From the NCBI RefSeq assembly GCF_000720255.1, contig NZ_JOJE01000079.1, forward strand, positions 1-14,534: DNA of 14,534 nucleotides. The letters run 5' to 3'. Below are positions 3,321 through 13,841 of this stretch, piece by piece; position 1 is the first letter of the stretch, and every line of letters begins with the position of its first letter. The notes beneath the pieces were generated by a model that saw only the letters and a list, made by a program, of their open reading frames with translations, was not told the DNA's origin and searched no databases. The DNA comes from Streptomyces griseus subsp. griseus (GTDB lineage Bacteria > Actinomycetota > Actinomycetes > Streptomycetales > Streptomycetaceae). The position numbers were made by a program, and so were the translations under genes.

Positions 3321-4475
3321 TCTAATCCGATCAAGAAGCTCCCGCCGAATGCCAAGGGGCAGGTTCGGTATCGGTTTGTGGTCGATGCAGGGAGCGATCC
3401 CTCTACCGGGAAGCGCAAGCAGTTGACCCGTACCTTCGGCACGCTGCGGGAGGCGAAGGTCGAGTACGCGCGCATCACGAACCGTCGCTACGAAGGGACG
3501 TTCATCGAGCCCAACGAGATCACGGTGAACGAATGGCTGGATCAGTGGCTCGACACGAAGGCGGAGGATCTGGAAGAGAGCACCGTCTACAGCTATACGA
3601 TGACCCTGGCTCGTGTCCGGGGGAAGCTCGGGCACATTCGGCTCCAGCAACTGACCGAGGACCACGTCGAGGCGTGGATGAGGTGAGCGCTTGGGGAAGG
3701 CCGCGTTCGTGGTGGCAAGACGGGCACGGGTCTAGGGGTGACCTCGGTGGAGATGTCCCTGGCGCGGCTGAAGGAGGCACTGAACCGGGCTGTCGCCCGG
3801 CGCCTGGTCGCCGCGAACGTCGCCCAGGAGGTCACGATTCCTCGGAAAGTACGCATGGCGGAGCGCAGGGTCAAGGCGGTGGTTCAGCCCTGGAACGTCG
3901 AGGAGGTTCATGCCTTCGTGCGCGCGGTGAACGACGACCGCCTCTACGCCCCTCTCCTTCTCTCCCTGATGGGCCTGCGGCCGGCTGAGATCTGCGGCAT
4001 GCGCTGGGCCGATGTCGACCTGGGCAAGGCCGCCCTGTCTGTTGCCAACACGCGGACACTGATGGGGAACAAGACCGTGGTGGAGAAGGACACGAAGTCT
4101 CTCGCCGCTGAGCGGCAGCTTCCTCTGCCCGATCCAGTCAGGGAGGAGCTGACGTGTTTCAGGGCTATGCAGGTGGCCGAGAAGCTGGCGGCGGGGGAGA
4201 GGTATGAGGAAAGTGGCTACGTGCTCGTGGACGAACTCGGCAAGGCGCTCAACGGGCGGCAGTTGCGTGAGTGGGTGTACAAGGTCATGGACGAGAACGG
4301 GCTGCGAGCTGGCCAGCGTCTCCACCCCTGCCCCTGCACAGAGTGTGAGATGTGGGAGCGCGGGTGGGTGAGTGAGAAGAACGTCGAAACTCTGCAATAC
4401 CGCTTTGACGGGCCAGAACAGGCGCCGGTCCTGGTCATGGGATGCTCCCTCGGTGCTACATGGCACCGGTTGTAG
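3321..4475 (+). pseudogene. Tyrosine recombinase (integrase), interrupted and chimeric
   Basis: The frame opens with NPIKKLPPNAKGQVRYRF and FGTLREAKVEYARI, the N-terminal arm-binding region of phage/ICE integrases. It continues through the core-binding domain (TVNEWLDQWLD, YTMTLARVRGKLGHI) and enters the catalytic domain at LLLSLMGLRPAEICGMRW, whose Arg is the first catalytic arginine. Three defects are visible. No ATG/GTG/TTG lies between the stop at 3309 and GTG 3378, so the start codon seems lost. An in-frame TGA at 3684-3686 follows EAWMR, where a TGG (Trp) would fit. After about 4310 the HxxR, His/Trp and Tyr motifs are missing and a tail with CPCTECEMW takes their place up to the TAG at 4473-4475. 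No active recombinase can be made. It marks a former integrative element. Confidence 0.82.
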
Positions 4476-5689: not shown

Positions 5690-5834
5690 GTCGGGCAGGA
5701 CGCGGACCGTGACCCGTCCGCCAGGTGCTTGGCCGAAGGAGAAGCCGTCGACGGGACTGCGGTTCTCCCCCAGGGCGGTGATGCTGGCGGCGAGCGCGCC
5801 GAGGGAGGTCAGCACCGGGTAGGGGCCGGTGATC
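5690..5834 (-). other. Coding-like fragment of unknown family
   Basis: In the minus frame fused to the end of the IS5 remnant, the segment reading YPVLTSLGALAASITALGEN, then PVDGFSFGQAPGGRVTVRVL, has ordinary Streptomyces protein composition and GC3 bias. It has no start of its own and fades after about 5690. I do not recognise the family. It is probably debris of the gene into which the insertion sequence inserted or recombined. Confidence 0.3.
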
Positions 5835-6270
5835 CATAAGATGACGGGCAGGATCCGGCGTCTGCGCAGCTCGTCGCGGTTGGGGTTGGAGTCGTAGCCT
5901 TTGTCGCCGAGCAGGGCCTCGGGTCGTCTGCGGGGCCGGCCGGGGCGGCCGGCGACGGGCGGGATGCCGTCGATGAGGGCGAGGTCGACCGGCGACGGAC
6001 CGGTGTCGGCGCCCCCTTTTTCGCGCGGATGTGGGAGCCGTCCACGCACGCCCTGGACCAATCGAGCTGCCCCACCGAGTTGAGCTCGGCGATCAGGACC
6101 CGGTGCAACTGGTCGAAGACACCGGCCTGCTGCCACCGCTCCACCCTGCGCCAGCAGGTCTGACCGGAGCCGAACCCCAACTCCAGCAGCAGCAGTTGCC
6201 AGGCTATGTCGTTGTGCAGGACATACAGGGTGAGGTAGTGACCGAGTCCGGTCAGGCTGAGGGAACAGCC
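5835..6270 (-). pseudogene. IS5-family transposase remnant
   Basis: The minus strand reads YVLHNDIAWQLL, LELGFGSGQTCWRRVERWQ, FDQLHRVLIAEL, and DWSRACVDGSHIRAKKG, the N-terminal half and first catalytic Asp (VDGSH) of an IS5-group DDE transposase. At the homopolymer CCCCCTTTTT (6012-6021) the frame shifts. In the next frame GGADTGPSPVD is joined directly to LALIDGIPPVAGRPGRPRRR and ALLGDKGYDS (second Asp), so roughly 30 codons between them are deleted at about 5985. After RRILPVI (about 5835) homology stops, so the catalytic Glu region and the right end are lost. The N-terminus upstream of HNDIAW also departs from the family. No terminal inverted repeats are recognisable. Confidence 0.8.
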
Positions 6271-6280
6271 GGCGGCTCAG

Positions 6281-6610
6281 CGCGGAAACGGTGTGATCAC
6301 CGTAAACGAGTTCCGTCCGTTCGTGCTTGACCCCGAGCGTTTCGGTCCCACGATCGCCGAGTTCGCTGAGGCCCTCTCCGCACTCGGCGACCCCGACGGG
6401 GACAGCCTGATCGAGCGCCCCCTCTTCGTATCGCTGAGGACGGCGATCGGCTTCGAGGAGGCGAACATCCACGCCCTCTTCGACGCCTTCGGTCCGGACG
6501 CCGAGGACCGCATCACCGTGGCTACGTGGGCCGCCGGCATCAAGGACTACTACGCGCCGGACATGGCCGGGATCCCGGGCGACCAGTTGGTGGCTGCCCG
6601 GGCCGTCTGA
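6281..6610 (+). pseudogene. EF-hand calcium-binding protein, C-terminal part
   Basis: The plus frame reads RGNGVITVNEF, which is the back half of an EF-hand loop, then FVLDPERFGPTIAEFAEAL, the loop DPDGDSLIERPL, and DAFGPDAEDRITVATW, ending at the TGA at 6608-6610. Streptomyces calerythrin-like proteins of about 170-180 residues have this order. The first half is missing and the match begins inside a calcium loop at about 6281, right at the end of the IS5 remnant. GTG 6293 could still start a 105-residue product. In the DPDGDSLIERPL loop, position 12 is Leu instead of the usual Glu, so calcium binding there is doubtful. Most likely a gene truncated by rearrangement. Confidence 0.65.
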
Positions 6611-6696
6611 CACGGTCCGTCAGCGGCTTTCCGGCCGTGGGCGGCACCGCTACGACGTGACCGAACTGCCGCTTCCATCGGGACACGTCCCACCGA

Positions 6697-6720
6697 GCGG
6701 GGCCTTGCGGCAGGCCCCGC
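6697..6720. terminator. Hairpin terminator of the furan operon
   Basis: The 9-bp arms GCGGGGCCT (6697-6705) and AGGCCCCGC (6712-6720) enclose a six-base loop. The hairpin sits about 40 bp beyond the methyltransferase stop codon on the minus strand and about 90 bp beyond the EF-hand stop on the plus strand. It is well placed to end the operon and may act in both directions. Confidence 0.7.
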
Positions 6721-6758
6721 CCCCAGCCTGCGGGCGGACGTCGTGAGCGTTGCGGGCG

Positions 6759-7664
6759 TCAGGGCGAGGGCTTGTGCGCGAACACCCACCGGTTCCCCTC
6801 CAGTGCGTCGTTCGGCTCGGGCAGGGGGCCACGTCCGTGCCGGCGGGTGAAGTCGAAGGGGGTGTGTACCGAGGTGGACCAGCCCTTGGCCGTCAAGTCA
6901 CCCGCGGAGTCGGGTCGTGGTCCCTTGTCGAAGAGGTGAAGCAGATCGATGCCGATCTGTTCTCGCGTCGCCGTGTAGATCGGGCTGTCGCGGTATTCCA
7001 GCAAATCCTTCTCCAGCTTGGCTTCGAAGGCCAGTGCGCTGCCTTCGGTGGTCAGCCGGTCCACCGTGTCGATGAGGTACGTCTCGGCGGGGCCTGGCAG
7101 GTAGAAGAGGAGTCCCTCGGCCAGCCAGACGCTCGGTGCGACCGGGTCGAGGCCGGCGGTGGTCAGCGCGGTGACCCAGTCGGCGCGCAGGTCGACCGGT
7201 ACGGGGACGCGCTTCACCTTGGGGGTGGCCGACAGGTCCTTGAGCACCTGGTGCTTGAACGCCAGCACGCCCGCTCTGTCGATCTCGAAGACCACGCAGT
7301 CGGACGGCCAGTCCAGGCGGAAGGCGCGGGTATCCAACCCCGCGCCCAGCAGGACGACTTGGCGGGCGCTCGTACGGACCGTCCGGAGGAGGAAGTCGTC
7401 GAGGACCCTGGTCCGCAGGCCGAAGTAGCGGGCGAACCGCCCCCACAGCGGGTTGCCGTCGCCGTCCGGGACCTGCTGGATGCGCACTGGCCAGTCCGCG
7501 CACGCCGGGGCGGCGCGCACGAAGTGTTCCGCGTAGGTGTCCTGGGCCAGGCTGTCGTGGCGGTGGGTCTCGATCGCCCGTGCCGCGGCGACCAGGAGTG
7601 CGGTCAGCCCCACGCCTGCGTCCACGCCTTCCGCCTCCGTGTGCTGGGGTGCCGTGCCGACCAT
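6759..7664 (-). CDS. SAM-dependent methyltransferase (LCMT/PPM1-like family)
   Basis: This 301-residue protein belongs to the leucine carboxyl methyltransferase-like class I family common in actinobacteria. Its SAM site is VVLLGAGLDTRAFRL (GAGLDTR at residues 107-113), followed by FEIDRAGV (acidic ribose contact) and the later WLAEGLLFYLP motif. The family transfers methyl from SAM, in characterised members to carboxylates or hydroxyls; the substrate here is unknown. I place the start at ATG 7664 because GGAGG (7669-7673) lies four bases upstream. An in-frame ATG at 7748 overlaps the stop of the dehydrogenase as ATGA and would add 28 proline/arginine-rich residues, with a weaker ribosome site. 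It is the last gene of the operon, just before the hairpin at 6697-6720. The sequence appears intact. Confidence 0.88.
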   Translation of the reverse strand: MVGTAPQHTEAEGVDAGVGLTALLVAAARAIETHRHDSLAQDTYAEHFVRAAPACADWPVRIQQVPDGDGNPLWGRFARYFGLRTRVLDDFLLRTVRTSARQVVLLGAGLDTRAFRLDWPSDCVVFEIDRAGVLAFKHQVLKDLSATPKVKRVPVPVDLRADWVTALTTAGLDPVAPSVWLAEGLLFYLPGPAETYLIDTVDRLTTEGSALAFEAKLEKDLLEYRDSPIYTATREQIGIDLLHLFDKGPRPDSAGDLTAKGWSTSVHTPFDFTRRHGRGPLPEPNDALEGNRWVFAHKPSP

Positions 7665-7668
7665 GTTT

Positions 7669-7673
7669 CCTCC
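7669..7673 (-). promoter_or_regulatory. Ribosome binding site deciding the methyltransferase start
   Basis: The minus strand reads GGAGGAAACATG: a full GGAGG four bases before ATG 7664. This strong site supports 7664 over the upstream in-frame ATG at 7748, which has only GGGAAGAAG before it. Confidence 0.7.
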
Positions 7674-7744
7674 GTTGATGGGAGTGGGGGGCGCGAGGTG
7701 CCTGCTTCTCGGATGCGGTGAGGCTGCGGTGCGGCGTGCCTCGC

Positions 7745-8851
7745 TCATCGGCTTCTTCCCGCCGGAAGGAGTACGGGTTTGACCACGCGGCCCGCGTCGC
7801 AGTCGCGTTCGGCCTCGTTGATGTCGGCCAGTGGGTAGGTGCGGATCAGTTGGTCGAAGGGGAAGCGTCCGGCCTGCCACAGCCCGGTCAGCCGGGGTAT
7901 CAGCAGTCCGGGCACGGCGTCCCCTTCGCAGATGTGGCGGATGCTGCGGCCTCGGTCCAGGGTGCCCGGGTCGAGCGGCAGCGCGGTGTGGAGCCGTGCC
8001 ACCAGGCCGAGGCTGCCGGTCGGGCGCAGTGCCCGGAGCGCGTCGTTGATGCGCGGGGACGAGGCCGTGGTGTCCAGCGCGTACTGCGCGCCGCCGTCGG
8101 TCAGCCGCCGGATCTGCTCGGGCAGTCCGGCCGTTTCGGCGGGCAGCGGGATCGCGCCGAACCGTTCGGCCAGGGCCAGCCGCCCGGGATGCCGGTCGAC
8201 GGCCACGGTCAGCGCGCCAGCGGCGGTGGCCGCCATCACCGCGGCCAGGCCCACCGCTCCCGCGCCGAAGACCGCGAGGGTGTCGCCGGGGCCGGCGCTG
8301 AAGGTGTTCAGCACGGCTCCGGCGCCGGTGAGGAAGCCGCAGCCGAGCGGCCCGAGCAGTTCGACGGGCAGTGCGGGGTCGACCCGGACGGCGTTGCGGG
8401 CCGGGACGAGCGCGTACTCGGCGAACGAGGACTGGCCGAACCAGCGGGGGGCCAGCGCTCCCCCGGTCGCGTCGGTGAGCCGCGGCGTGTCCTCCTCGCG
8501 TCCTCCGAAGAGGTTGAGGGAGGCGAAGGAGTCGCAGTAGGCGGGGGCCGCGCCGCGGCAGTTGCGGCAGTGTCCGCAGGAGTCGAAGCTCAGCACGACG
8601 TGGTCACCGACGCCGATCGCGGTGTCCGGGCCGCCGCCCGTCCGCACCACGACCCCGGCCCCCTCGTGGCCGAGCACCGCCGGCAGCGGGCTGCGGCCGG
8701 CTGATCGCCGGACCGCGAGATCGGTCCTGCACATCCCGCAGCCCGCGATCTCGACCAGGATCTCACCGTCTGCGGGTTCCGTGTGCAGGGTCACCTCCTC
8801 GACCGCGAAGGGGTCCTCGTACGAACGCAGTACGGCCGCCTGGAACCTCAT
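7745..8851 (-). CDS. Zinc-dependent alcohol dehydrogenase (aryl/benzyl alcohol type)
   Basis: A 368-residue medium-chain dehydrogenase oxidising an alcohol to an aldehyde, or the reverse. Catalytic zinc ligands are visible at Cys41 (CGMCRTD), His62-Glu63 (GHEGAG) and Cys171 (GCGFLTGAGAVLN). The structural zinc lobe has Cys92, 95, 98 and 106 (CGHCRNC then PAYC). The nucleotide fold is VFGAGAVGL at about 195-202, and Asp219 after the second strand suggests NAD+ rather than NADP+. The GCGFLTGAGAVLN segment is typical of benzyl/aryl alcohol dehydrogenases, fitting a small aromatic ring such as furan. I choose ATG 8851 because GGAGG at 8859-8863 is seven bases away; ATG 8857, overlapping the aldehyde dehydrogenase stop as ATGA, is too close to it. 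Full length and intact. Confidence 0.9.
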   Translation of the reverse strand: MRFQAAVLRSYEDPFAVEEVTLHTEPADGEILVEIAGCGMCRTDLAVRRSAGRSPLPAVLGHEGAGVVVRTGGGPDTAIGVGDHVVLSFDSCGHCRNCRGAAPAYCDSFASLNLFGGREEDTPRLTDATGGALAPRWFGQSSFAEYALVPARNAVRVDPALPVELLGPLGCGFLTGAGAVLNTFSAGPGDTLAVFGAGAVGLAAVMAATAAGALTVAVDRHPGRLALAERFGAIPLPAETAGLPEQIRRLTDGGAQYALDTTASSPRINDALRALRPTGSLGLVARLHTALPLDPGTLDRGRSIRHICEGDAVPGLLIPRLTGLWQAGRFPFDQLIRTYPLADINEAERDCDAGRVVKPVLLPAGRSR

Positions 8852-8853
8852 CG

Positions 8854-10257
8854 TCATGCCTCCTGCGGGCGGTGGACGACGAACGGCCGGAGGTTGCCGT
8901 AGAGCCCCCACGGCCCGCCGGCGACGCCGACACCGCTGTTCTTGACGCCTGCGAAGGGCTGGGCGAGGGACAGTTCGGCGTGGTGGTTGATCCAGGCCGT
9001 GCCGCATTCGAGCCGGTCGGCCACCGCCCCGGCCCGGTCGAGATCGGTGCCCCATACGGAGCCGCCCAGGCCGAAGCCGGTGCCGTTGGCCGCGTCGACG
9101 GCTTCGTCGAGGCTGCGGTACGGCAGCACCGGCAGGACCGGTCCGAACTGTTCCTTGGTCACCACCGGGCTGCCAGGCGGGACGTCGGTAAGGATCGTGG
9201 GAGCGAAGAAGTAACCGGGCCCGTCCAGCCGGTGGCCGCCGGCCGCCGCCCGGGCCCCGTCCGCCAGGGCCTGCTTCGTGACCTGCTCGACCCGGGCCAG
9301 CTGGGGGGCGTTGTTGACCGGGCCCAGCCGGGTTTCAGGGTTCAGGCCGGAGCCGACGGCGACGGTCTTCGCGCGCTGGGCGAGGGCTTCGACGACTTCG
9401 GCGTGGAGCTGGGCCGGAGCGTAGACGCGTTTGACCGCCATGCAGACCTGCCCGCAGTTGCGGAACGCGGCCCAGAACAGCCGGTCCGCGATCCGGTCCA
9501 CCTCGACGTCGTCCAGCAGGACGGCGGCGTCGTTACCGCCCAGTTCCAGTGTGACCCGGGCGAGCGAGGCCGCCGCCGCTTCGGCGACGGCCCGCCCGGT
9601 GGGTACCGAGCCGGTGAAGGTGACGTGGCGGATGCCCGGGTGGGAAGCGAGGCGGGCGCCGAGTGGTTCGCGGCCGGTGACGACGGTCAGGACGTCCTCG
9701 GGCAGGGCGGTGGCGAGGACGGAGCCGAGCAGCCGGGTGGCGAGGGGGGTGAACGGGGATGGTTTGAGGACCACGGTGTTGCCCGCCACGAGTGCGGGCG
9801 CGAACTTCGCCGCCGCGAGCTGAAGGGGAAAGTTCCACGGCACGATCGCGGCGACAGGTCCGAGGGATCGCCAGCGGATCTCGCTGTGTACGGGCCGGCC
9901 GTCGGTGATCCGCCGGGTTCTGGGGGCCAGGTCGGCGAAGTAGCGCAGGCGAGCCGCCGTACGGGCGACTTCCGCGTGCGACTCGGCCAGGGGCTTGCCC
10001 TGTTCCCGGGTGAGCAACCGAGCGAGGTCATCGCCGGCCGCCTCCACGGCGTTGGCTGCCACGCGCAACGCAGTGGTGCGTACGACGGGGTCGGCCCGCC
10101 AGCCGTGCCAGGCCCGGTGGGCCCGGTCGACCACGACGTCCAACTCGTCCGGCTGCTGGTCGGGGGCCTCGTCGAAGGTCTCCCCGGTGGCCGGGTCGAC
10201 GACGGCGAAACGGGCGGGTTGACGTCCGGGAACGCGATCGGACTCGGATGTCGGCAT
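8854..10257 (-). CDS. NAD(P)-dependent aldehyde dehydrogenase
   Basis: A 467-residue aldehyde dehydrogenase superfamily member that oxidises an aldehyde to a carboxylate. Visible catalytic residues are Asn142 (VPWNFPL), Lys165 (LKPSPFTP), Glu238 (LELGGND) and the nucleophile Cys272 (NCGQVC). The coenzyme segment FTGSVPTGRAV and the late EQFGPVLPV are also in place. Length is normal for the family. ATG 10257 gives MPTSESDRVPG; the mfnB stop lies eight bases upstream and the ribosome site is weak, suggesting translation by reinitiation after mfnB. The stop overlaps the start region of the dehydrogenase gene (ATGA at 8857-8854). In this operon it could oxidise the formyl group of the MfnB furan or the aldehyde made by the neighbouring dehydrogenase. 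Substrate not provable from sequence. Confidence 0.92.
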   Translation of the reverse strand: MPTSESDRVPGRQPARFAVVDPATGETFDEAPDQQPDELDVVVDRAHRAWHGWRADPVVRTTALRVAANAVEAAGDDLARLLTREQGKPLAESHAEVARTAARLRYFADLAPRTRRITDGRPVHSEIRWRSLGPVAAIVPWNFPLQLAAAKFAPALVAGNTVVLKPSPFTPLATRLLGSVLATALPEDVLTVVTGREPLGARLASHPGIRHVTFTGSVPTGRAVAEAAAASLARVTLELGGNDAAVLLDDVEVDRIADRLFWAAFRNCGQVCMAVKRVYAPAQLHAEVVEALAQRAKTVAVGSGLNPETRLGPVNNAPQLARVEQVTKQALADGARAAAGGHRLDGPGYFFAPTILTDVPPGSPVVTKEQFGPVLPVLPYRSLDEAVDAANGTGFGLGGSVWGTDLDRAGAVADRLECGTAWINHHAELSLAQPFAGVKNSGVGVAGGPWGLYGNLRPFVVHRPQEA

Positions 10258-10265
10258 GCCGGTGG

Positions 10266-11021
10266 TCAGTTCACCGCGGGGACGCCGGCCGCGTGCTCCC
10301 GGGCCTGCCGGTCCATCTCCGCCCGGAAGGCGGCCACCAGATGCGGCTGAATCCTTCCAGCGTTGCGGTCGCCACCCTCGCAGACCGCTCCGCGCACGCC
10401 CACGATGTCCGTGCCGATGCGGGTCAGCGGACCGAGGTCGGTCTGTTTGACACTGCCCGCGAGGGCGGCGAGCAGACCGGACGCGTGGGCCAGTCGGACG
10501 AACTCGGCACAGACGTCCGGCGGAACGTGGTCGAACAGCCGCGACCCGTCCTTGACGGCGGTGTCGAGCATGGCCGCGTCGGCCCCGGATCGGGCGGCGA
10601 TGTCGGGCAGGGCGAGCGGGTTGACGCAGCCGATGCGGTGAGCGTCGGCGTATCCGGAGGCGACGACGAGCGCTTCGGGGCGGTGGTCCTTCACCGCACG
10701 GACGACCGCACGCATGACCTCGATGCCCTGATCGGGCGTCGTGCACCCGTATAGGCCGACCTTGATGTACGTGGCCCCCGAGACGACCGCGCCGAGCGCA
10801 GCCTGGGCCACTGTGCCGGGCTTGTACGGGACATCCCCCACGGTCGCGGACACCGGCTTGTCCGCCGGGACCGCTTCGCGGATCTCCCTGATGACCCAGG
10901 GGAAGTTCGCGCCGAGAGAGCCCTCATCAGGCTTCTTGACGTCGACGATGTCGAGATGCTCCGCAGCCTTCGCGCAATCGAGAGCCTCCTCGACACCGTC
11001 CGGGGAGATGAGAAGCAACAC
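10266..11021 (-). CDS. mfnB: (5-formylfuran-3-yl)methyl phosphate synthase, MfnB-like
   Basis: This 251-residue TIM-barrel-type protein matches the MfnB (DUF556) family, which condenses two glyceraldehyde 3-phosphates into (5-formylfuran-3-yl)methyl phosphate, the furan core of methanofuran in archaea and of related C1 cofactors in methylotrophs. Visible signatures are [20 protein letters not shown] (Lys29, aligned by me with the Schiff-base lysine 27 of the archaeal enzyme), TYIKVGLYG (Lys87, equivalent to Lys85) and [12 protein letters not shown] (Asp153, Lys157). The GTG start at 11021 has AAGGAGGT (11026-11033) four bases upstream and gives the family N-terminus [14 protein letters not shown]. 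It is the first gene of a four-gene operon. No other methanofuran gene lies in the window, so the furan probably goes to another product. Confidence 0.9.
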
Positions 11022-11330
11022 CCTGACCTCCTTCGCCGCCAGTCCGCCCGGCCGAGGGACAGGGGACCGCGGATCACCTGGCTCATGTGCGGTGCGCTCA
11101 TCATTTCCGTCACCCTAGGGAACCGGGAGGGCGCACAGAGTACCCATAGGGTGCTCATGTCCACGTACAGTGCGCCGTACATACCGGTGCAAACCAGCCC
11201 ACAGGCAACACTTCGCCCGGGCGGTGAATAACTCGGGGTATTGGTGACAACCGGTCTGCCCTTGTCGCGGCTATTGTGCTTCAGCTCACGGGTAGTTGAT
11301 GTTCGCCATAAATGGGCTCCGAAATTAGCA
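11022..11330 (-). promoter_or_regulatory. Upstream control region of the mfnB operon
   Basis: This region ahead of mfnB holds the Shine-Dalgarno AAGGAGGT (11026-11033) and, about 90-130 bases upstream of the GTG, two related sites: CCCTAGGG (11113-11120, perfect palindrome) and ACCCATAGGGT (11142-11152, arms ACCC/GGGT). They are inverted copies of one another through CACCCTA/TAGGGTG. Further up, CGTACA is repeated directly at 11164-11169 and 11176-11181. I cannot name a -10/-35 pair with confidence; TAGGGT and TACTCT on the minus strand both fit TANNNT. The arrangement suggests repressor control, but the regulator is not in the window. Confidence 0.4.
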
Positions 11331-12478: not shown

Positions 12479-13690
12479 TCAAGCGAGCGTGAGTGGCGGG
12501 ACCGCGTTCCCTATGGCCAACAGTCCTCCGTCCAGACGCAGTTGGAGAGGTGTCGGCTCGGCGCACACGGTACGGCGCAGGCCGGCGGGAATGTAATCCA
12601 TGGTCGCGAGCCGCTCGGCGTAATGGAGGAAACGGTGGCAGCCGACAGCGTGCAGCGACGAGCCCTCGGCGGCAGCGGCCACCTCAGGTAGGACGAAGCC
12701 GCCGTGTCCCTCTGCCTGGATCACGTCGACGGCGTCGACGTGCCGATGGCGCACGCGTTCGGGGAAGAAACGCGCGGCGAAGTGCCGGTAGAGGACGTAC
12801 TCAGAGGCGCCCGTCCACTTACGGGGGTCGGCGGTGCGCAGGAACGCTTGCCAGAAGGGTATGCCGTGTGCTTTCTGGGCTCGCTGGATAATTCCGCCCA
12901 GAATGGTGCGATCGAAAACCATGTGGTGCTGCATGCCGCTGTAGGCGTCCACAGGCAGCCAGCCCGGGATCAGCCGCCCAGCCGCCTCCAGCGCAGTGTG
13001 GTGGTCCGGCAGCCGGTGCACCCGGGTGTTCAGGCGCCAGGAGAGGGGATAGCCGTACGGCAATACGGAGGACCCCTGGCCGTCGACGAATGCCATGTCT
13101 CGCAGGAACACGAAGTCCGCATCTACCACCAGGACATGTTCCGGCGTGCCTGCGGGAAGGACATCGAAACACTGCAGCTTCGCCAGTTGCTGGAAGTACC
13201 ACGAGGCAGTGGACGGATCTCTGCCCAAGCCTCGCAGGTACTCACGCACATCCCGGCTGCTGGGTACGCAACTTCGTTCGTCGAACCAGACGACGCGCGA
13301 ATCCAGATCGCCGAAGGACCGCGCCGGTAGGCGCTGAGCGACAACCTGCACCAGCTCCACGGGGTTCAGGGAGCGAGCGAGTACACCCCGTATACAGACG
13401 TCCAGCCCGGCCATGTCCTTCTCCGCAGCCAGGATGACTACGCTGATCGGCGGCAGTTTGCCGCCTCGGTGGCCCATGAGCCGTTCGTCGGCAGCCTCGG
13501 ACGCCGGGTAGGCGAGGAGGGTGGCTAATGGCTGCTGCACTTGACAGAGCATAGCCAGTACAGCTGAGCGCTTGCGTCCAGGGAAGTGGTCTACGGGTTC
13601 CACCCGATCCGAGCGGAGGGCCTCCTGGTAGCTCGCGGGTGTTGACGCCCGAGCGGCAGCAGGCCCCGTGTCGCAGTTGTACGTGGTCAT
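12479..13690 (-). CDS. DUF6492 family protein, glycosyltransferase-like
   Basis: A 403-residue protein that looks complete. It has an opening strand ISVVILAAEKDMAGLDVCIR (about 82-101), then VVWFDE, SWYFQQLAKLQCFDVLP (about 163-179), a DxD motif in HVLVVDADFVFLRD (Asp190, Asp192), DAYSGMQHHMVFDRTILGGI, and EYVLYRHFAARFFPERV. These match the DUF6492 family, whose layout and DxD resemble GT-A nucleotide-sugar transferases; no reaction is established to my knowledge. The first 75 residues are extra and low in motifs. I prefer ATG 13690 (GGAG nine bases upstream); GTG 13714 would add eight residues without a ribosome site. It is monocistronic, with no sugar genes beside it. Its codon use is more mixed than that of the mfnB operon. 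Confidence 0.75.
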   Translation of the reverse strand: MTTYNCDTGPAAARASTPASYQEALRSDRVEPVDHFPGRKRSAVLAMLCQVQQPLATLLAYPASEAADERLMGHRGGKLPPISVVILAAEKDMAGLDVCIRGVLARSLNPVELVQVVAQRLPARSFGDLDSRVVWFDERSCVPSSRDVREYLRGLGRDPSTASWYFQQLAKLQCFDVLPAGTPEHVLVVDADFVFLRDMAFVDGQGSSVLPYGYPLSWRLNTRVHRLPDHHTALEAAGRLIPGWLPVDAYSGMQHHMVFDRTILGGIIQRAQKAHGIPFWQAFLRTADPRKWTGASEYVLYRHFAARFFPERVRHRHVDAVDVIQAEGHGGFVLPEVAAAAEGSSLHAVGCHRFLHYAERLATMDYIPAGLRRTVCAEPTPLQLRLDGGLLAIGNAVPPLTLA

Positions 13691-13841
13691 GTCCGCTGAC
13701 TCCAGTTCGTTCACTGCGGAGTGTGACTATCTCGCCCACCGCTTCGGGAACGCGGCCGACCCCCACGAGCCCCGCTGGTCCGAGACCACGAACGTCTACC
13801 GCAGCCCGGCGCTTCCGGTGCGTGCCGGTGGATCTGCCTAA
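13689..13841 (+). other. Short coding-like plus-strand fragment
   Basis: Starting with an ATG that overlaps the divergent DUF6492 start (shared CATG), the plus strand reads MSADSSSFTAECDYLAHRF, then NAADPHEPRWSETTNVYRSP, and ends at TAA 13839-13841, 50 codons. From about codon 11 onward the codons are strongly GC3-biased, as in a real gene. I do not recognise the family. It may be the last piece of a truncated gene rather than a functional small protein. Confidence 0.35.

Follow-up and report, generated by a model that had tools for sequence, protein, structure and literature searches.

Why should a Streptomyces genome carry a gene for a furan-forming enzyme of methanogens? The question is raised by a 14,534-bp stretch of DNA from Streptomyces griseus subsp. 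griseus (contig 79, NZ_JOJE01000079.1, of a draft assembly of 9.89 Mb in 265 contigs), which was analysed over its whole length and is referred to below as the window. On its minus strand the gene mfnB, encoding (5-formylfuran-3-yl)methyl phosphate synthase, is followed by the genes for an aldehyde dehydrogenase (ALDH), a zinc alcohol dehydrogenase (ADH) and a methyltransferase, in this order. We consider it probable that the operon serves, as a biosynthetic unit of its own, to make dimethyl furan-2,4-dicarboxylate. The proposal is based on the 2,4-pattern that MfnB sets on the furan ring, on two dehydrogenases able to give both carboxylates, and on the precedent of Ady1, a methyltransferase that forms an ester. 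The link between genes and compound, every reaction in Streptomyces and the order of the steps are what we infer from the sequences.

The four genes and their products

The operon consists of the following genes.

10266..11021, minus strand: mfnB, (5-formylfuran-3-yl)methyl phosphate synthase (4-HFC-P synthase), 251 amino acids, GTG start, PF04476 and NF002573
8854..10257, minus strand: aldehyde dehydrogenase, 467 amino acids, PF00171; proposed to turn the formyl groups of the furan into carboxylates
7745..8851, minus strand: zinc alcohol dehydrogenase, 368 amino acids, PF08240 and PF00107; proposed to oxidise the 4-hydroxymethyl group
6759..7664, minus strand: S-adenosylmethionine (SAM)-dependent methyltransferase, 301 amino acids, PF04072/TIGR00027; proposed carboxyl methyltransferase

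A GAAGGAGGT ribosome-binding site lies directly upstream of the GTG start of mfnB. The gap between mfnB and the ALDH gene is 8 bp. The ADH gene follows after 2 bp or, if the alternative ATG start at 8857 is used, overlaps the ALDH stop codon in an ATGA, and the methyltransferase gene follows after 80 bp or, with an alternative ATG start at 7747, overlaps the ADH stop codon in the same manner. MfnB matched PF04476 with 265.9 bits (cut-off 22.4), ALDH matched PF00171 with 453 bits and the methyltransferase matched PF04072 with 180.6 bits (cut-off 22.3); the matches of ADH to PF08240 and PF00107 were also over the cut-offs. The coordinates, gene order and gaps agree with the initial annotation, which had described the four genes as lying on one strand with tight junctions.

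The window MfnB scored 394.6 bits on the NCBIfam model of (5-formylfuran-3-yl)methyl phosphate synthase, NF002573 (cut-off 341). The sole solved relative found was MJ1099 of Methanocaldococcus (4rc1/4u9p, E 7.9e-82), with 59% identity to the window protein and 59-60% to the enzymes of the Streptomyces family. Positions 25, 27, 65, 85, 151, 155 and 217 of MJ1099 are matched in the window protein, with D25, K27, K85, D151 and K155 retained, and position 120 differs. The equivalents of positions 25, 27, 65, 85, 151 and 155 were completely conserved (1.00) in 138 copies from overlapping samples. Asp25, Lys85 and Asp151 belong to the catalytic residues. According to the accessible parts of PMC6604932 and PMC11365854, respectively, Lys27 is the Schiff-base residue and Lys155 is catalytic. 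Judged by its sequence, the window MfnB is a genuine member of the family. It shares its catalytic residues with the methanogen enzyme and differs from it in its setting, the Streptomyces mfnB standing beside ADH, ALDH and methyltransferase genes in genomes where the tested methanofuran markers are absent.

In ALDH, residues C272, E238, N142 and K165 were invariant (1.00) in 125 copies, and no NCBIfam model was over its cut-off among the matches listed (25 of 40). For ADH, the best solved relatives were 5tnx (294.8 bits) and benzyl alcohol dehydrogenase 1f8f (258.1 bits), followed by a score of 158.9 bits; with these as the nearest PDB relatives, a substrate of the hydroxymethyl-aromatic type would be fitting. 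Residues C41, H62 and C171 and the four cysteines at 92, 95, 98 and 106, which we take to be the catalytic zinc ligands and the structural four-Cys site, were also invariant (1.00) in 125 copies. The methyltransferase scored 253.1 bits on TIGR00027 (cut-off 93.55), its only solved relatives found being ML2640 and Rv0731c, and its GAGLDTR motif, taken here as the SAM-binding motif, was conserved across the copies except for T112 (0.69). Both the comparison with MJ1099 and the conservation across copies confirm that the catalytic residues are intact, as had been proposed.

These residue counts and the ratios of nonsynonymous to synonymous substitution (dN/dS) were obtained after setting aside L137, L138, L139 and L142, matches below 70% identity or 85% coverage, and seven ADH sequences and one methyltransferase sequence whose aligned part contained a stop. 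The median dN/dS was 0.15 for MfnB, 0.22 for ALDH, 0.26 for ADH and 0.27 for the methyltransferase, which are rough values given the synonymous sites in GC-rich DNA. All four genes look to be under purifying selection.

Conservation and distribution of the gene set

Three samples of mfnB loci were compared. With one genome scanned per species, 266 mfnB relatives came up; the best 80 of them, all from Streptomyces, Kitasatospora or Actinacidiphila, formed the first sample. The second came from 150 Streptomyces genomes, chosen independently of mfnB similarity, and included 38 strong loci besides the window's own; the third consisted of 17 further Streptomycetaceae loci. The samples overlap (for example L039 and L096), and the counts are not independent. 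Under a strict count, in which 75% or more of every partner had to be covered by a single unbroken match, all three partners were found beside mfnB in 75 of the 80, 32 of the 38 and 13 of the 17 loci. Under a summed-coverage count, which passes split genes, the numbers were 75/80 for the best loci, 33/38 for the genus and 14/17 for the family loci. Together with the near-perfect co-occurrence in the 150 genomes described below, these counts establish that the mfnB-ALDH-ADH-methyltransferase neighbourhood, proposed from the window alone, is conserved in other genomes.

The five exceptions among the best 80 loci were one locus truncated at the end of its contig (L048) and four with a deleted ALDH gene (L003, L013, L066 and L072). 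Those of the genus sample were two contig ends (L097 and L103), three loci without an intact ALDH gene (L090, L100 and L109) and one with a frame-split ALDH gene (L088), and those of the family sample were a split ADH gene (L121), a cut locus (L130), a locus without ALDH (L132) and a divergent mfnB without the set (L137). In L114, which was counted as complete, some 3 kb separate the methyltransferase gene from that for ADH. The methyltransferase gene was flipped in orientation yet near the set in 7/80, 2/38 and 7/17 loci. Premature stops in otherwise full matches in the three samples were confined to the last 12 residues (seven in ADH, one in the methyltransferase).

The divergent MfnB relative of L137 is 52% identical to the window MfnB; Glu stands in place of its Schiff-base lysine and Arg in place of Lys85. 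It is adjoined by genes for a UbiA prenyltransferase, an aminotransferase and an isopentenyl phosphate kinase-like protein (over the NCBIfam cut-off), which form a cluster (L137:5881-10369) different from the four-gene set.

A match to PF04476 was detected in 41 of the 150 Streptomyces genomes, strong in 39, about a quarter of the sample, and weak and partial in two (G080 and G108). ADH orthologues (at least 79% identity and E of at most 1e-110, with the 13 best candidates scored per genome) were present in 38 genomes, all mfnB-positive, and in 0 of the 111 Streptomyces genomes without a strong mfnB; in the 39th mfnB genome, G119, the ADH gene beside mfnB is split. Methyltransferase orthologues (at least 72% identity) were present in all 39, on a contig separate from that of mfnB in G119 and G147. 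Lesser methyltransferase matches were present in seven mfnB-negative genomes, G045 (71%), counted as one further orthologue, G111 (65%), G003 (64%), G102 (63%), G020 (63%), G037 (60%) and G010 (57%), and the lower ones look like paralogues. By Fisher's test over the 150 genomes, uncorrected for relatedness, the p value for co-occurrence with mfnB was 6e-37 for ADH (7e-35 with G119 scored as a miss) and 2.5e-35 for the methyltransferase.

The closest mfnB relatives of the window, with up to 98% protein identity, are in Streptomyces. Over the phylum, 6 of 396 genomes matched mfnB: three Streptomyces, G508, G283 and, weakly and below the cut-off, G614. One Azospirillum mfnB is located near formylmethanofuran dehydrogenase genes. 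For S. coelicolor, the accessible part of an AbrB1/B2 study (PMC7581861) names three up-regulated genes, among them mfnB (SCO6440).

Among plasmid records, 13 from Streptomyces and Streptantibioticus, megaplasmids included, carry copies of mfnB at 87% identity or more. Three of these plasmids were inspected, two of them linear (240 kb, from S. zaomyceticus, and 377 kb) and one circular (70.7 kb), and each has the full set together with a gene for an EF-hand protein. The other flanking genes differ among these three, and flanks vary between loci in general. Since the plasmid copies have otherwise differing flanks, the gene set seems to travel as a unit, and the varying flanks and the location on both linear and circular plasmids suggest that the four genes alone may be sufficient.

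The proposed product and its alternatives

Which compound could the operon make? When aziA2 was disrupted in Streptomyces sahachiroi, dimethyl furan-2,4-dicarboxylate (C8H8O5, determined by nuclear magnetic resonance) built up (PMC3778384); for an earlier head-space detection that paper cites Citron et al. 2012. In its 2,4-substitution, its oxidation state and its two methyl esters the compound equals the expected output of the operon. It was reported without a gene and with its biosynthesis unknown, and the origin considered by the authors, a polyketide or a pyruvate dimer, differs from the operon route (PMC3778384). No paper connecting the compound with MfnB was found in the open-access literature. 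Methylenomycin furans (MmfL/MmfH/MmfP) are also small Streptomyces furans made with few genes, and the AfsA/MmfL-type synthase of that pathway is not among the four operon proteins by Pfam. The initial annotation had envisaged a methylated furan-2,4-dicarboxylate as a possible end point, which gains support from its identity with a known Streptomyces metabolite; for the role as a signal that it also suggested, nothing was found.

In the proposed route, MfnB would convert two glyceraldehyde 3-phosphates into a furan that bears a formyl group at position 2 and a phosphooxymethyl group at position 4, the pattern described for MfnB in the accessible part of PMC6604932. The phosphate would be removed by a phosphatase encoded outside the operon, ADH would oxidise the 4-hydroxymethyl group to the aldehyde, and ALDH would oxidise both formyl groups to carboxylates. 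Methylation of both carboxylates by the PF04072 methyltransferase would then give a neutral, volatile diester.

Characterised PF04072 members such as LCMT1 and TcmP esterify carboxylates. The same is described in the accessible part of PMC9379638 for Ady1 of azodyrecin biosynthesis, likewise a Streptomyces enzyme, which turns a carboxylic acid into a methyl ester in vitro. The substrate of Ady1 is an aliphatic azoxy acid, unlike the proposed furan, and its likeness to the window methyltransferase is at the level of the Pfam family. Of the two methylated products initially considered, an ester or an ether, the activity of Ady1 on a carboxylate favours the ester, and the ether is not supported.

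Several observations weigh against dimethyl furan-2,4-dicarboxylate as the product. Another candidate cluster was named by the S. sahachiroi authors (PMC3778384). None of the four operon genes encodes a phosphatase, a single methyltransferase would have to serve two different carboxylates, and ADH could work as a reductase. The ALDH gene is deleted or absent, with mfnB and the ADH and methyltransferase genes kept, in eight loci (L003, L013, L066, L072, L090, L109, L100 and L132), by internal deletion or degradation with differing breakpoints in six and by absence of the gene in two; in L066 the ADH match is split too. This pattern suggests repeated independent loss of ALDH, and either another ALDH takes over its job in these loci or the product varies there.

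Such loci would be in line with an early stop or a branch of the pathway. The product would then be a half ester or a mixed compound, for instance a formyl ester or methyl 4-(hydroxymethyl)furan-2-carboxylate, and ADH would act as a reductase; zinc ADH reactions are reversible. On the other hand, a full-length ALDH is retained by summed coverage in most loci (76/80, 34/38 and 14/17, those split in L088 and L103 among them), and the fully oxidised diester is the only 2,4-furan methyl ester found reported from Streptomyces. We regard the early stop as unlikely.

Still less likely is a change in the substrate of MfnB, by which a non-furan product would be made and the fit with the known diester would be a coincidence. 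Such a change would be in line with the limited identity to MJ1099 noted above, and the L137 relative, in which the Schiff-base lysine is lost, indicates that the fold can change its role. It is opposed by the invariance of the catalytic residues in the 138 copies and by the score over the cut-off of the NCBIfam equivalog model, and also by the fact that MJ1099 is nearer to the window MfnB (59%) than to the methanofuran-linked MfnBs of two other actinobacteria (51-53%).

It appears very improbable that the furan is built into a larger natural product whose remaining genes lie elsewhere. The best 80 loci contain 1467 open reading frames (ORFs) by a home-made ORF caller, and after exclusion of the four-gene set, the EF-hand family and apparent antisense shadows (judged by position), no other family recurs in more than 8 loci; on this ground a larger biosynthetic cluster was rejected. 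Moreover, methyl esterification would often cap a route. A match to the ProFaNA paper (PMC10364804) concerned DUF5565 and was unrelated to the operon.

The furan-forming enzyme is common to the operon and to the methanofuran and methylofuran pathways (MfnB/C/E/F; Orf22/21/9), where it makes the furan according to the accessible parts of PMC6604932 and PMC8141765. None of the aminotransferase, kinase and condensing enzyme of the methanofuran pathway is within the four-gene set by Pfam. The formylmethanofuran formyltransferase domain FTR_C (PF02741) and TIGR03123, a model that we take to cover the MfnF-type condensing enzyme, were searched genome-wide and detected in 0 of the 39 mfnB-positive Streptomyces genomes, the window's included. 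Both were found in the two actinobacteria outside Streptomycetaceae with a strong mfnB (G508:C67 and G283:C7, corresponding to L138 and L139) and, as positive controls, in two methanogens among 14 control genomes. The early remark that methanofuran genes are lacking therefore holds for these two marker families, and as ADH, ALDH and PF04072 partners are also not known as methanofuran genes, an operon belonging to that pathway, or being a remnant of it, can be dismissed as the least credible of the alternatives.

If the operon indeed makes dimethyl furan-2,4-dicarboxylate, a methanogen furan enzyme would be at work outside coenzyme synthesis. As a hypothesis, the proposal ties the origin of a Streptomyces compound that had no reported pathway to four specific genes, and it suggests a role for the (5-formylfuran-3-yl)methyl phosphate synthase gene carried by 39 of the 150 sampled Streptomyces genomes. 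Furan-2,4-dicarboxylic acid esters are under study as building blocks of bio-based polymers, as far as the accessible part of that literature tells, and in view of this interest a small set of genes that leads to them from glyceraldehyde 3-phosphate could be of use.

Leader, 3' end and neighbouring genes

Three further features flank the operon.

11022..11140, minus strand: conserved leader/promoter region of mfnB, with the GAAGGAGGT ribosome-binding site at its end
6695..6722, minus strand: GC-rich hairpin 3' of the methyltransferase gene, possible transcript end; predicted fold, 11-bp GC
6281..6607, plus strand: C-terminal remnant of an EF-hand protein, residues 69-177, 84% over 108 amino acids to the L053 neighbour

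When 131 distinct sequences, including those of the divergent L137 and L138, were aligned, the leader of about 120 bp upstream of mfnB proved conserved, and likewise in an alignment of 50 of the 106 usable sequences, from which L137, L138, L004 and L031 had been left out beforehand. A search of Rfam gave no match at the gathering score and two chance-level hits below it. The consensus structure had an energy of -0.45 kcal/mol, with both-sided changes in 2 of 7 predicted pairs, and the z-scores of single-sequence folding ranged from -1.3 to +1.0 for five sequences. An RNA switch was rejected on the Rfam result, the weak consensus fold and these unremarkable z-scores; the leader is probably promoter/operator DNA for a putative regulator. 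In the 150 genomes the exact core pattern of the leader occurred 28 times, 20 of them directly upstream of mfnB and the other 8 scattered, and it was missing upstream of mfnB in 19 of the 39 mfnB genomes. A regulon for this element is unsupported by these numbers.

The single terminator postulated after the methyltransferase gene was not confirmed: the hairpin (6722-6695) has no T run, the terminator scan gave no match, and the folding energy was not in excess (z 0.07). An intrinsic terminator at this position is thus not supported by scan or fold.

The intact EF-hand neighbours (L053:14423-14956 and L141:12821-13354) have EF-hand domains, and the window remnant alone is without a Pfam match. 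The EF-hand gene was found in 45 of the best 80 loci and is situated, in many loci, either convergently downstream or divergently upstream of the operon. In a survey of 21 hand-picked and mostly complete genomes, the subfamily was present in 13 of the 16 mfnB-positive and 1 of the 5 mfnB-negative genomes, with at most one copy per genome. In 8 of the 13 mfnB-positive carriers the gene is no more than 10 kb away from mfnB (binomial p about 8e-18 for an assumed 0.3% chance each). Beside the remnant, at 5809-6180, a weak match to an IS4/5-type transposase was observed below the cut-off.

Elsewhere in the window, the minus strand at 2065-2988 encodes RNA polymerase alpha-subunit domains, the N-terminal one apparently incomplete, and this ORF is possibly an extra, truncated copy of rpoA. 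A phage-type integrase, apparently broken, extends over two ORFs at 3378-4475 on the plus strand, its catalytic part being below the Pfam cut-off. The minus strand at 12479-13714 encodes a 411-amino-acid protein with a sub-cut-off match to DUF6492 only.

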